Virus record (IMG/VR): IMGVR_UViG_3300037486_000582
Span: 44,578 to 108,577 of that record
Direction: 5' to 3' (one strand)
Length of the DNA stretch: 64,000 nucleotides
From: a virus
Below, piece by piece: positions 22,702 through 44,861 of this stretch; the stretch's first letter is position 1, and each line of letters begins with the position of its first letter. The notes under the pieces are model-generated. The model saw only the letters and a program-made list of their open reading frames with translations. It was not told the origin of the DNA and did not search any database. The position numbers were made by a program, and so were the translations under genes.

Positions 22702-23391
22702 TCATTGCGCCGGCGCGTCCTGTGTCCTGTCGTACAGGTCACGGAGCAACCGCGCGTCAGCGTCCCGGAACCGCCCGGGCGCGAGCCCGCCCTGGAACGC
22801 CATGTCCGGGGCGAGCGGATACATCACCGACCCGCTGTCGTCGGGGTCGTGGGCAAGCCCAAGTACATGCCCGAGCTCGTGGACCAGAACCCGGTGTGCC
22901 GTCCCGTCGTCGGGGACGTTCCGCATCCGGACAGTGGCCCTGGCCACGAAGCCGCTTCCGACCTCGCGGGTGTGGAAGCAGCCGGCGTCGGCGTCCGCCG
23001 CCTCCGCAGGAACACCGAAGACCAGGGCAACGCGCGGTTCGGCGCTGACCGGACAGAAGGCCAGGGCGTCGAAGCCGAGCTGCATGTTGACCTCGCGGAC
23101 CGCATACTCGGCACGACGCATGTCCGCCGACGTCAGCTCCGCGCTCTCGTTGCGGACCCCAAGGCACAGCGGGAAGGCGCTCCTGCCCCAACGGACCTCT
23201 TCCGGCGACGCACAGACGCCGACGGCGCCCGAGCCTTCAACCTGGTCGGCGTACTGCGCGACCGTTCCGCTCCAGCACACACGAAGCAGGAGCGGCTCGG
23301 TGTGCCGCGGAACGAACCACACGAGCAGCACGACGGCGGTCACGGCGATGGCCGCGAAGGCGGCGACGGATACGATCCACTTCCAGCGCAT
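22702..23391 (-). CDS. Membrane-anchored matrixin-like zinc metalloprotease
   Basis: 229 residues. Residues 5-27 form an N-terminal membrane anchor or signal (IVSVAAFAAIAVTAVVLLVWF). The zinc site HELGHVLGLAHD is at 171-182, the extended metzincin HExxHxxGxxHD form, followed at 189-191 by VMY, the Met-turn. Cysteines at 39, 60, 76, 113 and 138 may form disulfides outside the cytoplasm. Length fits an archaemetzincin/matrixin catalytic domain without extra modules. The protein ends in AQ-stop within a junction motif. A role in host surface alteration, lysis or superinfection control is inferred; phage metzincins of this kind are not common knowledge to me. Confidence 0.82.
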   Translation of the reverse strand: MRWKWIVSVAAFAAIAVTAVVLLVWFVPRHTEPLLLRVCWSGTVAQYADQVEGSGAVGVCASPEEVRWGRSAFPLCLGVRNESAELTSADMRRAEYAVREVNMQLGFDALAFCPVSAEPRVALVFGVPAEAADADAGCFHTREVGSGFVARATVRMRNVPDDGTAHRVLVHELGHVLGLAHDPDDSGSVMYPLAPDMAFQGGLAPGRFRDADARLLRDLYDRTQDAPAQ

Positions 23392-23409: not shown

Positions 23410-24507
23410 CTAGTCTACGCCACCGCCGGGCGGGTCGCGCCAGTAGGCGGGCGGGTGGCAGAGTCGCGGCCAGGCTGCTCCGACCGGCCCGCCGGCCGTT
23501 GCGCGCACCGCGACTTCTGCGTCGTCCGGGTAAGGCTTCGGCATCTTCGGAAGGAGGAAGGCGCGCGTGCCGGCGTCCTTGTCGCACCAACCACACGGCG
23601 CGAACCGACGATCCTTCGACGCGAGCAGGCGCCGAGCAGCCATGAACCGCCAGCCCCACCAGATATCCGTCAGCGTTTCGTCCCGATCAGCCACGCCGCA
23701 GACGTAATCGCCGCGCCAGTCGATGCAGCAGAGCCGCACCTCGCCGTTCCAGGTGACGGCGAGCTCGCGGAAGGGGTTCGAGCAGTTCTTCCGGAGCGGA
23801 GCTTCTGGAACGGGGCGAGCCGGGCTCGCCCCGGCGTGGTTGAGCACCTTGCGGCTGGCCCGCTCCCGGTCGCGAAGTCCCAGGTCGTCCATGAGCACGA
23901 CGAGCCGGCGGGCGAAGCGCCTGTGGTTCCCCCACGGCGACCACCCGCTGGGGGCGAGGTCAGCGTAGAAGTCGCGTACGGTGATGCCGACGCCAAGCGT
24001 TGCTGCTTCGGCGCGGAGGTCGTCCCTGTCCTCACGGTAGGTGTCGATGATGACGTAGTCGAGTCCGGCGTCGAACAGCCCGACGATCTTCTCTCGCATC
24101 CGGCCCCGGAGAAGCTGGCCGTTCGTGGTCATCTGGAGCTGCGCCTTCGGGAGCAGCGCCCTGAAGGTCGCCACCACCTCGACCGCCTGTCGGTTGGCAA
24201 GTGGTTCACCGTGCATCGCGAACTCGTACCGCGCCCACGGGGCAAGGGCGGCTGCCTGTTCAGCCACGAGCAGCGCCGTGTCGAGCGTCATCGGCTTGAA
24301 GCCGCCAGGCTTCGTGCGGATTGCGTTCAGTCCGCAGAAGGAACAGAGCCGGGTACACCCTTCGGTCAGCTCGATCTGGACGGACCAGGGACGCTGGACC
24401 AGAGCAGCCGCCGGGTCAGCAGCGATGGCGTCTGCAGGCGCGTGTGGCGGCGGCGGCTGCCGCCACTTGTCGCGAACGTACCTCCGCTTCACCCGGGGCT
24501 CGGTCAT
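23410..24507 (-). CDS. Radical SAM/SPASM-type enzyme
   Basis: 365 residues. [12 protein letters not shown] places the CxxxCxxC cluster at Cys51, 55 and 58. [12 protein letters not shown] and [10 protein letters not shown] are typical radical SAM barrel motifs. The C-terminal Cys-rich part ([30 protein letters not shown]) is a SPASM/twitch-like auxiliary cluster domain. Such enzymes often modify peptides or proteins. It lies next to the five MGGRG genes, one small zinc protein away, which makes those proteins candidate substrates, though nothing proves it. The stop overlaps nothing; the start overlaps the upstream stop (ATGA). Confidence 0.87.
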
Positions 24508-24974: not shown

Positions 24975-25460
24975 TCAGCGGCCGGCACGAGCGAGACGCG
25001 CACGCTCCCGGGCAAGGCGCTCGCCGTGGAATCGGGTGCGAGCAGCGACGTGGGCCTGCGCGTCGGCCACGGCGGTCGGGCCACTGAACGCGCGTGGCGC
25101 GGGTATGGTAGACAGCCCGCCTGGGCGAGAGTACGTCCCGTCCTGGTTACGGAATGCTGGCACTCCTTCCGTGACCGTGACCTCGTCGGTGTTCGACCGC
25201 CGCGTCTGGACCATCGCCATGTAGGGTGAGCGCACGCGCTCGTTCCCCACGAACACGGCACCGCCGTTATTGTAGAAGTCCTCGGCGCGCGTCCCGGTCG
25301 GTGGCGCTGCCGAAACCCGCTCGATCACGTCCTCGGCGATCATGCGTCCGGTCAGCGGAGTCACCTCTGTCGGGAGCCCGCCGGCCGCTTCGCCACCGCC
25401 ACCGGCCGCTGCTCCGCCGGCTGCCCCGCCACCGCCGCCACCGCCTCCACGTCCGCCCAT
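24975..25460 (-). CDS. MGGRG-leader protein 5 (161 aa)
   Basis: Begins MGGRGGGGGGGGAAGG and has a Gly/Ala head of about 28 residues, then a unique body with AEDVIERVSAAPPTG, EDFYNNGGAVFVGNERVRS and EGVPAFRNQDGTYSRPGG, ending in a basic helix (RERARLARAGR). AGGAGG-type site before ATG 25460. Last of five tandem genes with the same leader. Confidence 0.78.
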   Translation of the reverse strand: MGGRGGGGGGGGAAGGAAAGGGGEAAGGLPTEVTPLTGRMIAEDVIERVSAAPPTGTRAEDFYNNGGAVFVGNERVRSPYMAMVQTRRSNTDEVTVTEGVPAFRNQDGTYSRPGGLSTIPAPRAFSGPTAVADAQAHVAARTRFHGERLARERARLARAGR

Positions 25461-25463
25461 GAC

Positions 25464-25967
25464 CTACCTCCGTCCACCTGGCCGTGTGCCAGTAGTCGGC
25501 AACGATGGCCGACGCTGCCGCCGCTCCTCGGAGAGCCGCCGAGCGGACTCAGCCGCAGACCGCGTTGCCTCCCGTTGAGCAGCCTCCAGGGTCGCGTGCT
25601 GGCTCCGCTGTGTCGTCGCTGCCGTCCGGTTCGGCGCCCCAAATTCCCTGGCGCCTTGTCCCCAGCGCGAGGACGTCGCGACATCGAAGACGGGCTCGCC
25701 GCGGATGTTCTGCCCGCGGTCGATTGTCACCTGGCGGACGACGATGTCGTTGGTCTGCCCGACGCTGATGACGTTGCCTGCGGCTGCGACGTCGTTGCGG
25801 TTCAAGTTGTCCGGGTACCGCCCGGCCGGGAGCCCGCCCGAGACGACCGTTTCCGTTGCCGCCGTTGCCGCCGTCTCCGTCGCGGCACCGCCGCCGGCTG
25901 CCCCGCCACCACCCGCGGCACCACCACCGCCGCCGCCTCCACCACCACCACCACCACGTCCTCCCAT
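25464..25967 (-). CDS. MGGRG-leader protein 4 (167 aa)
   Basis: Leader MGGRGGGGGGGGGGGG followed by Ala/Gly and Thr/Ala segments; body with beta-rich NVISVGQTNDIVVRQVTIDRG, then a helical, Arg-rich C-terminus. Ribosome site AGGAGG. The body shows no clear similarity to its four neighbours, so only the head is shared. Confidence 0.78.
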   Translation of the reverse strand: MGGRGGGGGGGGGGGGAAGGGGAAGGGAATETAATAATETVVSGGLPAGRYPDNLNRNDVAAAGNVISVGQTNDIVVRQVTIDRGQNIRGEPVFDVATSSRWGQGAREFGAPNRTAATTQRSQHATLEAAQREATRSAAESARRLSEERRQRRPSLPTTGTRPGGRR

Positions 25968-25976
25968 CTTGACCTC

Positions 25977-26486
25977 CTACCGCGCGACTGTTCTGCTCGT
26001 GTCGGGCAGGTAGACCCGCGCCAGTTGCGTTTCACCTCGACGCTGTCGATTTGGCCGCGGACGGGTGACCGGATCGACTGTCGCTCCGGACATGCCCTGT
26101 CGGGTCAGCATCTCTCCGATGGCCTGTTGCTCTCGGTCGGTGAGCGGACGCGTCCTGCTCCCTCGGCCGACCGAATTGAGCTCGATCCGCCCGGTGTTCA
26201 CGTCGCGGTTCACCTGGAGCCCTTGGTCGCGCAGCCCGGGGACGACGCTGATGGCGTCGACCAGAGCCCGCTCGGCTCGGCGCTGGCGCTGTTGCGGCGT
26301 CTCCGCATTCGCAGCCGCGACATTCCGCTGCACGTCCGCGAGCCGTGGAGCCCCGCCGGGGATGAGCCCGGAGGCCTCGACCACCGTCGCCGTCTCGGCC
26401 GCGGCTGCTCCGCCGCCACCGCCGGCCGCGGCACCGCCAGCTCCACCACCGCCGCGACCGCCGCCTCCTCCGCCTCGACCGCCCAT
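25977..26486 (-). CDS. MGGRG-leader protein 3 (169 aa)
   Basis: Leader MGGRGGGGGGRGGGGAGG. Body helical first (RNVAAANAETPQQRQRRAER), then GLQVNRDVNTGRIELNSVGRG and LTDREQQAIGEMLTRQGM, ending in a basic beta segment (ETQLARVYLPDTSRTVAR). AGGAGG before ATG 26486. Confidence 0.78.
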   Translation of the reverse strand: MGGRGGGGGGRGGGGAGGAAAGGGGGAAAAETATVVEASGLIPGGAPRLADVQRNVAAANAETPQQRQRRAERALVDAISVVPGLRDQGLQVNRDVNTGRIELNSVGRGSRTRPLTDREQQAIGEMLTRQGMSGATVDPVTRPRPNRQRRGETQLARVYLPDTSRTVAR

Positions 26487-26507
26487 GACTTACCTCCTGC
26501 TCGCCCG

Positions 26508-26909
26508 CTACGGGGTCCGCTCACCGGGGCGCAACCCGGCCTGCCTGATCCGCTCCTCGCTCGGTCTGACGCCGGACGGGAGCTGGCGCAGCTCGTTCAC
26601 CGTGAGCCCCGACGGGAGCGTCCCTCGGCGGTTCATCGCGTCGGTCGCGTTCATCCCGACGCCCTGCCACGTAGCCGAACGCCAGTCGCCCCAGACACCC
26701 CGCGTGCTGATGCCCTCACCGAGCGCGCGCAGCTCCGGGTCCGAGAGCGTCTGCAGCCGGGCTGGCGAGAAGTCCCCAGCCGGGTCCGTTGACGCCGCTG
26801 CCTCGGCGAGCACCGCGGCTGCTCCGCCGCCGCCACCGCCGCCTCCTGCAGCAGCCCCACCGCCGCCTCCGCCTCCCCGGCCACCGCCGCCACCGCCGCG
26901 TCCGCCCAT
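26508..26909 (-). CDS. MGGRG-leader protein 2 (133 aa)
   Basis: Leader MGGRGGGGGGRGGGGGGG, Ala/Gly spacer, then LQTLSDPELRALGEGISTRG and LTVNELRQLPSGVRPSEERI, short helical repeats around SDPEL and TVNEL. AGGAGG before ATG 26909. No known domain. Confidence 0.78.
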   Translation of the reverse strand: MGGRGGGGGGRGGGGGGGAAAGGGGGGGGAAAVLAEAAASTDPAGDFSPARLQTLSDPELRALGEGISTRGVWGDWRSATWQGVGMNATDAMNRRGTLPSGLTVNELRQLPSGVRPSEERIRQAGLRPGERTP

Positions 26910-26918
26910 CGTCGCCTC

Positions 26919-27269
26919 CTAGTAGCTCCGCAGCGCGTCGCGGAGCTGCGGGTCCAAGTCACGGTTGTTGTGCCGAACTCCGTACATGAAGTTCCGGGCG
27001 TGGGCGGCCAACTCGGGCGGCGGGTTCGCGTCGAGGTACGTCCTGGTCGCACGGATCAGGTCGCGCCTGGCTTCGCCGTGGTCGCCCTTGTACCACCCGT
27101 TGAACGGCGTCATCCGGTCCATCCGGTCCATCGCGGTGATGGACTGCTGCAAGGATCGCCCGGCCGACGCGACGGCGGGCGGTACTGCAGCGGCTCCACC
27201 GCCGCCACCCGCGGCAGCCCCGCCACCGCCACCGCCACCGCCACCGCCTCCGCCACCACGTCCGCCCAT
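26919..27269 (-). CDS. MGGRG-leader protein 1 (116 aa)
   Basis: First of the tandem set. Leader MGGRGGGGGGGGGGGGG, Ala/Gly spacer, then a helical body with DRMDRMTPFNGWYKGDHGEA and a tail LDPQLRDALRSY. A junction motif (27288-27299) and AGGAGG precede ATG 27269, so this gene likely sets expression of all five. The Gly codons are mostly GGC/GGT/GGA in irregular order, so the tract is not a simple trinucleotide repeat. Confidence 0.78.
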   Translation of the reverse strand: MGGRGGGGGGGGGGGGGAAAGGGGGAAAVPPAVASAGRSLQQSITAMDRMDRMTPFNGWYKGDHGEARRDLIRATRTYLDANPPPELAAHARNFMYGVRHNNRDLDPQLRDALRSY

Positions 27270-27271
27270 GT

Positions 27272-28045
27272 TCAGCCTCCTGTCCCCGTTATTGCGTCGA
27301 CCGGCTCCGCGTCTGCCTCGTCATCGAACAGGCCGTCCAAGAGGCTCAACTGCCGCGTGTCCACGGGACCACGTTCCAGCCGCGAACGCATCTCGAGTAT
27401 ACCCTTGGGCGAGAAGCGAGCGAATGACGAAAGGTCTGCCACGCCGAGGTCATCCCAGAGCTCCCCGTACACGAGGACCATGGATGGCTGAATCGTGTCG
27501 ACCATCGCCCGGTACCCCTCGCAGAACCGACGTCGCACATCCTCCCCGACCCTGATACCTACCGTCGAAACGCAGACCGTCGAACGTCGCGCGATCCCGG
27601 CAAAGCAGAAGTCGAACGTACGCCAGTCGCCCCAGTTGACCGTGGGCACCACGACCGCCCCGCGAGCAGCCCAATAGGCGCCGAGCCACCGCGAGCGGTA
27701 GGTGTTCCAGAGCTGAAGCGCGGGCGGCCACTCGACGTACATGCTGAAGTCCGGCGTCAGCACGCCCTGCGCGCCAAGGACGTAGCGGTCGTACCTCCCG
27801 GGATTGTTCCAGACCGACTCGAATCGGTAGTCGTCGAAGAAGAAGTGCCAACAGCCGCCAGCCACTTCGTCGTCGTCGAGCTTGTTCCGGTTCACCCACG
27901 GAAGCAGCACGTCCGGCACCCAATCGACCGGGCCGGCGACATCTGGGAGGCCGAACCTGTTCGCGCTCCGATACAAGGACGTCGCGTGGAGCGGGTCCCA
28001 GTTGCCGGGGAGGCACTTCCAGTCCTTGACGTTCGGAATGCCCAT
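27272..28045 (-). CDS. DUF4417-family protein
   Basis: 257 residues. The pattern of the family is visible: VDWVPDVLLPWVNR, CWHFFFDDYRFESVWNNP, VLTPDFSMYVEWPPALQLWNTYRSRWLGAYWA, VVVPTVNWGDWRTFDFCFAGI and VLVYGE-like strands. DUF4417 proteins are known from phages and plasmids, without an agreed function. The start ATG 28045 lies 22 nt after a junction motif. Its 3' end contains the junction motif of the MGGRG set. Confidence 0.85.
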   Translation of the reverse strand: MGIPNVKDWKCLPGNWDPLHATSLYRSANRFGLPDVAGPVDWVPDVLLPWVNRNKLDDDEVAGGCWHFFFDDYRFESVWNNPGRYDRYVLGAQGVLTPDFSMYVEWPPALQLWNTYRSRWLGAYWAARGAVVVPTVNWGDWRTFDFCFAGIARRSTVCVSTVGIRVGEDVRRRFCEGYRAMVDTIQPSMVLVYGELWDDLGVADLSSFARFSPKGILEMRSRLERGPVDTRQLSLLDGLFDDEADAEPVDAITGTGG

Positions 28046-28526
28046 GGCCTTCGTTTCTACCACGCCGGTCATTGAGCGTCTGCTCAATGACGTGGCCGTG
28101 ACGTTGCTACCGCTGCTGGACGACAAGCTCCCGGTGCTCCGCCGGCCGCATGAGCGCCTGGCCTCGGCGGACTTCATCGCCCTGTTCAGCGATGAAGATG
28201 CCGCTGCCATCCGGCTCGGAGAACGTGGGCGCATTCGCGTTCACGGCGTCGGGCACACATCCTGTCGGATCACGGTGATGCTGCGCGGACAGCGCCGTAT
28301 CGCGCTCCGCGCCGAGGTCGTGCGCGTTGCGCTCGTTGTCGGACTGGTCGAGATCGCCACGTCCTTCGGTTGGGACGTGGCGTACTCCGGTGGAATCGAG
28401 TCGGTGACGCGGATAAACGGGCTCGGGATGATCAAGCACCGTCCGGCGGTGGCCCTTGGGGATCTTGAGGTACGGAACCCCGGCGCTCCAGCACCGCGGA
28501 GACGAAGGCCCACGGCGGGCAGTTGA
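28044..28526 (+). CDS. Rightward small protein of the RLG-motif family (160 aa)
   Basis: On the plus strand an open frame from ATG 28044 (or 28038) encodes a protein with SDEDAAAIRLGERGRIRVHG, the same motif as more than a dozen minus-strand proteins in this window (for example ATGAAIRLGERACAVVTV at 41195-41686). Minus-strand frames here look like shadows. Its start codon shares the CATG of the divergent DUF4417 start, so one of the two starts may be wrong. Its last 95 bases overlap the end of the convergent gene at 28432. No clear ribosome site. Confidence 0.6.
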   Translation: MAFVSTTPVIERLLNDVAVTLLPLLDDKLPVLRRPHERLASADFIALFSDEDAAAIRLGERGRIRVHGVGHTSCRITVMLRGQRRIALRAEVVRVALVVGLVEIATSFGWDVAYSGGIESVTRINGLGMIKHRPAVALGDLEVRNPGAPAPRRRRPTAGS

Positions 28527-44339: not shown

Positions 44340-44861
44340 TCATTGAGCGCCCGCGCACCGAGCGCGGCCCGCCCAGTCCTCGAACACGACCACGACCGAG
44401 TAGAACCGTGCCTTGTCGAGCGGCACCCCATCCGGCCGCACGTACCGCAGCTTGTTGGGCAGGAACTCCAAGTGGAACGCGGGGTACACGAGGACGAGCC
44501 CACCGGCCGGAGGCTGATCCTGAGCGACGATGAACCTTCGCCACCAGACCTTCCCCGTCTTCGCAGGCAGAAGGGCGACAACGCGGCGAGCCCGCCCGGT
44601 CAGCACCTCCGCCCGCGCCTTCGTCACCCATCGCTGCTCGGCCGTTCCGTAGGGGCAGTTCATGTAGCAGACGCCGGCCCACGGCTGCGTCAGCCCGTCG
44701 TCGCGGGCGGTGAAGTAGGTCGGACAGACGTGGAGCGCGTCGCTGGCGGCCACGTCCAGGTCGAACGCGCCGCCAGCCCACCGAACAGCCAGCGACTTCG
44801 CCAGCGCGGGCGGCGTGCCGAACTCCGGGTCGGTCAGCGCCCAGCCGGCCGGCCGCCTCAT
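44340..44861 (-). CDS. Phage DNA N-6-adenine methyltransferase (Dam family)
   Basis: 173 residues, the usual length of the phage Dam-type family. TDPEFGTPPALAKSLAVRW, FDLDVAASDALHVCPTYFTA and DGLTQPWAGVCYMNCPYG follow the family order (W-x-TPxxlf-x-LdaEFgF-x-lDvaA). The catalytic (D/N)PPY is NCPYG at 69-73, Cys for the first Pro, a mild deviation. Adenine methylation would protect phage DNA from host restriction or mark replicated DNA. It ends in AQ-stop. Confidence 0.86.
   Translation of the reverse strand: MRRPAGWALTDPEFGTPPALAKSLAVRWAGGAFDLDVAASDALHVCPTYFTARDDGLTQPWAGVCYMNCPYGTAEQRWVTKARAEVLTGRARRVVALLPAKTGKVWWRRFIVAQDQPPAGGLVLVYPAFHLEFLPNKLRYVRPDGVPLDKARFYSVVVVFEDWAGRARCAGAQ

Follow-up and report, generated by a model that had tools for sequence, protein, structure and literature searches.

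What is the role of a short N-terminal leader shared by consecutive but otherwise unrelated proteins? This question is raised by a 64,000-nucleotide stretch of an uncultured tailed phage genome (the window; IMG/VR record IMGVR_UViG_3300037486_000582, positions 44,578 to 108,577), in which a preliminary description had noticed five such genes, each starting with MGGRG and a run of glycines, and had proposed them as substrates of a common targeting, cleavage or modification step, pointing out a radical SAM/SPASM gene nearby. As far as sequences can tell, the five genes are one case of a wider pattern, in which the leader marks a large and interchangeable set of proteins, often toxin-like, whose genes adjoin one constant partner gene, DUF4417, in the phages and mobile elements of many bacterial phyla. 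The pairing of the leader (hereafter also the tag) with DUF4417 is described nowhere in the literature searched, where the motifs MGGRG, MGGRGS and GGRG also returned nothing relevant.

All five open reading frames (ORFs; 27269-24975, minus strand) start with ATG and encode MGGRG followed by a Gly/Ala-rich tract, as first described, and no other MGGRG start exists anywhere in the 108,577-bp record, so that their clustering is not due to chance. A ribosome-binding site lies just 5' of each ORF, being AGGAGG, as had been claimed for all five, in four cases and CGGAGG in the fifth. Without the leader, the bodies form five separate groups (phmmer E<1e-4) and not one diverged family, in agreement with their description as unrelated. 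The five proteins have no Pfam or PHROG family; among 50,697 phage records, four bodies gave zero tblastn matches at E<=1 and that of gene 2 (26909-26508) a single weak one (E=0.2), and for the two bodies searched in IMG/VR the only match was a sister phage. Directly upstream of gene 1 lies a DUF4417 gene (Pfam 166.4 bits vs a curated cut-off of 28.9), which the preliminary description had overlooked, and the window holds a module in the sense used here, i.e., an MGGRG[SAGT] gene adjoining DUF4417 on the same strand (Table 1).

Pairing of the tag with DUF4417 across phyla

The pairing can be followed in both directions. Starting from DUF4417, the best 80 viral and the best 80 genome loci fetched by DUF4417 alignment were clustered at 60% identity into 53 clusters, which are still related by ancestry. 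In 39 of the 53 clusters of these DUF4417-selected loci, the DUF4417 gene has an MGGRG ORF on its own strand no more than 3 kb away, and two further clusters have MGSRG or MGTRG instead; when other residues of MGGxG were tried on the same clusters, T was found in one and all others in none. Independent loci with the pairing occur in Firmicutes, Actinobacteria, Chloroflexi, Bacteroidales and Planctomycetes. Around the DUF4417 end (stop codon), MGGRG[SAGT] accounts for 21 of 140 ATG-ORF starts, as opposed to 3/1501 beyond 3 kb and 0/1604 on the opposite strand.

Starting from the tag, a scan of IMG/VR for a ribosome-binding site plus ATGGGNGGNMGNGG identified at least 101 distinct sites. Tabulating gene neighbours, as the preliminary description had suggested, shows that among the matches listed DUF4417 recurs within 3 kb of 45 of the 59 MGGRG[SAGT] genes (ORFs of at least 50 aa), and near none of the controls (0/13 for MGGRG plus another residue and 0/11 for MGGSG, which the scan pattern also matches; 0/24 together). 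On the best reading, the tagged proteins are exchangeable effectors and DUF4417 is the partner that stays constant.

The cultured phage Faith1 encodes a DUF4417 protein (gp115) followed by gp116, which starts with MGGRGGGGGG; the streptococcus phages phiNJ2 and A25 have the leader MGGRGASSGMS, and in mycobacterium phage Trixie gp2 has an MGGRG start ahead of the annotated one, overlapping gp1, the DUF4417 gene. The annotated start of Trixie gp2, an ADP-ribosyltransferase (ART; L003:1178-2122), is ~190 bases too late, an error that other cluster A phages may share. The Faith1 pair (L004:1136-4811) is located within a dense tRNA gene cluster. On a Rubrobacter marinus plasmid (L306:3755), the usual order is reversed, a 79-aa MGGRGKGGSGGGGG gene immediately preceding DUF4417.

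Among the recognised neighbour families of these loci, terminase, portal and prohead protease are the commonest, and a type IV secretion system coupling protein gene lies just upstream of DUF4417 in two Chloroflexi loci (L095, L136). A gene for a TROVE/Ro60-vWA protein (L044:7734-9362) is found near DUF4417 and a tagged array. In the window phage, sheath-, baseplate- and tape-measure-like genes, judged by reading the ORFs, lie outside the window. The radical SAM/SPASM gene is present where first noted, two genes downstream of the array on the same strand, a position that would suit an enzyme modifying the leader as in ribosomally synthesized and post-translationally modified peptides. This is, however, scarcely credible: a homologue was found in the sister phage only, among about 290 loci, and the gene is therefore not considered part of the module. 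Of the common step initially proposed, targeting or handling remains the best reading, with DUF4417 and not the radical SAM enzyme as the partner. For the zinc-ribbon neighbour and the matrixin-like metalloprotease gene beside the radical SAM gene, homologues were likewise found in the sister phage only.

Table 1. Positions of the tagged genes and of other features in the window
Feature	Position	Strand	Remarks
Tagged gene 1	26919..27269	-	MGGRG leader and body, 116 aa; leader chimeric vs sister phage
Tagged gene 2	26508..26909	-	MGGRG leader and body, 133 aa
Tagged gene 3	25977..26486	-	MGGRG leader and body, 169 aa
Tagged gene 4	25464..25967	-	MGGRG leader and body, 167 aa
Tagged gene 5	24975..25460	-	MGGRG leader and body, 161 aa
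DUF4417 gene	27272..28072	-	Start codon uncertain (28072 or 28045); PF14386 E=6e-49, PHROG_940 2.6e-62
Leader stretch of gene 1 with both breakpoints	27175..27271	-	blastn vs L002: two matches overlap exactly there
Radical SAM/SPASM gene	23410..24507	-	PF04055 2.1e-10, PF13186 9.1e-9; judged outside module
Matrixin-like metalloprotease gene	22705..23391	-	PF00413 3.6e-6
Terminase large subunit	10829-9264		
Portal	8481-6598		
MuF-type head gene	6158-4917		

The tag as a protein feature and its cargo

In a set of 170 tagged proteins (dereplicated at 70%), the first five residues read MGGRG or differ little from it, within the range of variants that the search pattern allowed, and are mostly followed by [SGA][SGA][SG]G. 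Arg4 is encoded by AGR in 95 proteins and by CGN in 75, and the glycine codons are also variable; the use of both arginine codon types implies that the motif is kept as a protein. The leader is invariant within one body family whose members are 22-52% identical to its first member. In an AlphaFold2 (AF2) model of this common Firmicutes family (A5), residues 1-10, i.e., the leader, are predicted to be disordered and the body to be folded, and the body structure has no convincing match in the PDB.

The leader is also where the window and its closest relative differ. On L002, the contig of the sister virus, the array comprises seven tagged genes, two more than in the window, and both breakpoints of this difference lie inside the leader, which implies that gene 1 of the window combines the leader side of one sister gene with the body of another. 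Elsewhere, too, tagged genes often stand in tandem, in arrays of 2-7. Both observations are what would be expected if the leader were mainly a DNA recombination handle for cassette shuffling, with no role in the protein. Such an origin of the pattern is nonetheless improbable, as codons 2-5 vary freely, the motif is common to AT-rich and GC-rich genomes from several phyla, and, among the matches listed, Ser at position 4 never occurs with DUF4417. As the main explanation, a DNA-level element was rejected on the basis of codon use. In loci L016, L032, L036, L044, L054 and L081, three tandem tagged genes follow DUF4417, several of them with paralogous winged-helix-like bodies.

The bodies of the 170 proteins fall into 65 unrelated groups, and the tag is kept across phyla, which supports the initial view of a conserved leader on variable cargo and extends it well beyond the window. 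Domains identified on tagged bodies include PF03496 ADP-ribosyltransferase, PF15644 papain-fold (glutamine) deamidase, ART-PolyVal, Ntox24, PBECR2, ATLF and MuF_C, and Alt-like ARTs are also found. In related phages of mycobacterium and Gordonia, the body that follows one shared leader is an ART, a deamidase or DUF3626, and on a Ligilactobacillus plasmid DUF4417 is followed by an MGDRGAASG gene annotated as polymorphic toxin type 24. The combination that distinguishes polymorphic toxins, a constant N-terminal element with exchangeable toxin domains, is thus found in the relatives (ART, papain-fold deamidase and others). No families could be assigned to the large tagged proteins of Chloroflexi (780-1090 aa; ~780 aa in L095 and L136).

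Fusions and fold of DUF4417

In thirteen clostridial DUF4417 proteins, a KG[GM]G[STA]A linker leads into a variable tail; a tagged neighbour is absent at all 13 loci. Six of the tails are of barnase/RNase type, five confirmed by Pfam (barnase/RNase N1), one of which also matches solved barnase structures; the sixth is alike in sequence as judged by eye. These fusions bear on the possibility that DUF4417 is a shared inhibitor or antitoxin, binding the common tag and keeping diverse effectors inert in the producing cell. One constant protein is indeed encoded beside many toxin-like bodies, and a common tag would permit a common inhibitor, but fusion in cis to barnase-like RNases suits a carrier better, and the phage polymorphic toxins known so far are presumed to depend on downstream immunity genes that are specific to each toxin (PMC5576092), making a shared inhibitor unlikely. 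The existence of true fusions, and of many loci at which the tagged gene overlaps the DUF4417 stop codon (d=-7 to -174), could also indicate that ribosomal frameshifting sometimes joins DUF4417 and the cargo encoded downstream into a single protein, the pair being a split polymorphic toxin. This we regard as very improbable, given the 2-nt gap and strong ribosome-binding site in the window and the tandem arrays, which cannot all be fused in this manner.

A Foldseek search with the AF2 model of DUF4417 (predicted local distance difference test score, pLDDT, 83) gave phage queuine tRNA-ribosyltransferases among the best matches (prob 0.94-0.99, E 0.0019, BFVD) and solved tRNA-guanine transglycosylases (TGTs) with prob up to 0.89 and E 0.05 (PDB), at template modelling (TM) values of 0.4-0.46 across BFVD/PDB. 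Membership of the TGT/DpdA group is not supported by sequence profiles (hhalign probability 0.1), and comparison with solved structures by sequence gave a chance-level match only. It is in fold alone that DUF4417 would appear to come nearest to TGT-like TIM barrels, and in the model the conserved H67, D71/D72, D99 and S101 lie near strand ends, as they might in an enzyme pocket. ParB-DUF4417 fusions are known in phages (PMC12704722) and one was seen at L010; the papers found on DUF4417 or ParB-DUF4417 (PF14386) give no function and no link to tagged cargo. The fold and the ParB fusions, along with the GGRGG repeats in the window leaders, would be consistent with a DUF4417 that acts on nucleic acid, the GGRG leader being an RGG-type tether that holds effectors on phage DNA. 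The chances of this are small, as there is no profile-profile similarity to TGT, the best E-value in the PDB is only 0.025, most leaders have one Arg followed by Ser/Gly, and the barnase tails on DUF4417 point to effector traffic.

Possible handling and delivery of the tagged cargo

With slightly better than even confidence, we favour the explanation that the five window proteins are exchangeable phage effectors and that MGGRG[S/A/G] is a protein-level client tag marking cargo for DUF4417. DUF4417 would recognise the tag and then chaperone, dock or process the cargo, which would be loaded with the phage DNA, or cross by a conjugation channel, and so enter the next cell, like the T4 internal proteins by their capsid targeting sequence (CTS). 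Repeated leaders would allow cassettes to be gained, lost and swapped by recombination. Delivery together with DNA, in the style of T4 capsid-targeted proteins, is likely in view of the neighbour genes listed above, because packaging is presumed for phage ARTs encoded close to packaging genes (PMC9503650), and because of the T4 precedent, where the CTS of IPI-III consists of ~10 N-terminal residues common to otherwise divergent proteins and is enough to bring foreign proteins first into the head and then into the host, the head also holding the ADP-ribosyltransferase Alt (PMC9026906).

The tag resembles the T4 CTS in being a short N-terminal sequence common to divergent phage proteins, but it differs in its sequence (MGGRG), in its dedicated DUF4417 gene and in a range far beyond T4-like phages, and packaging is here inferred. 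MuF polymorphic toxins of temperate phages likewise combine a constant phage part with exchangeable toxin domains beside packaging genes (PMC5576092); in place of a MuF domain, the constant part here consists of a tag of 5-6 residues and of DUF4417 as a protein of its own. An N-terminal MuF domain is absent from the five window proteins (Pfam/PHROG), 1 of 147 tagged proteins matches MuF_C only, and the MuF-type head gene of the window phage lies elsewhere. Polyvalent proteins, effectors thought to travel with DNA in phages and conjugative elements (PMC5512222), share recurrent ART and PBECR domains with the tagged proteins, although they are large multidomain chains, whereas the tagged proteins are mostly small and separate and have one common tag. 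More tentatively, and with odds that we place below even, the tag, read by DUF4417 as a dedicated adaptor, may be a general address label for exchangeable effectors that phages and conjugative elements of many bacterial phyla load for delivery along with their DNA, which would amount to a modular delivery system outside the MuF and CTS types.

Several points weigh against the client-tag explanation. The contact between tag and DUF4417 and the localisation of cargo in the virion are both inferred; DUF4417 appears to resemble an enzyme of the TIM-barrel type, although an adaptor would not have to be an enzyme; and about eight DUF4417 clusters have neither a tagged neighbour nor a fusion. In three loci (L010, L077, L308), the gene after DUF4417 opens with a shared 65-75 aa domain and the GGRG tag is internal, so that a free N-terminus is not required. 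Finally, 24 of the 170 bodies form one family, mostly from Actinobacteria-like loci, that is winged-helix-like by eye and not toxin-like, and no known toxin is matched by the five window bodies in Pfam or PHROG.

For DUF4417, and for hundreds of phage genes that lack annotation, the pairing offers an initial lead to function, as every MGGRG[SAG] gene next to DUF4417 can now be regarded as a candidate host-acting effector. It also opens, in cultured mycobacterium and streptococcus phages, the testable question of whether a short shared tag directs unrelated effectors to a single partner and into the phage particle; if this is true, the tag would be a general route to new phage effectors.
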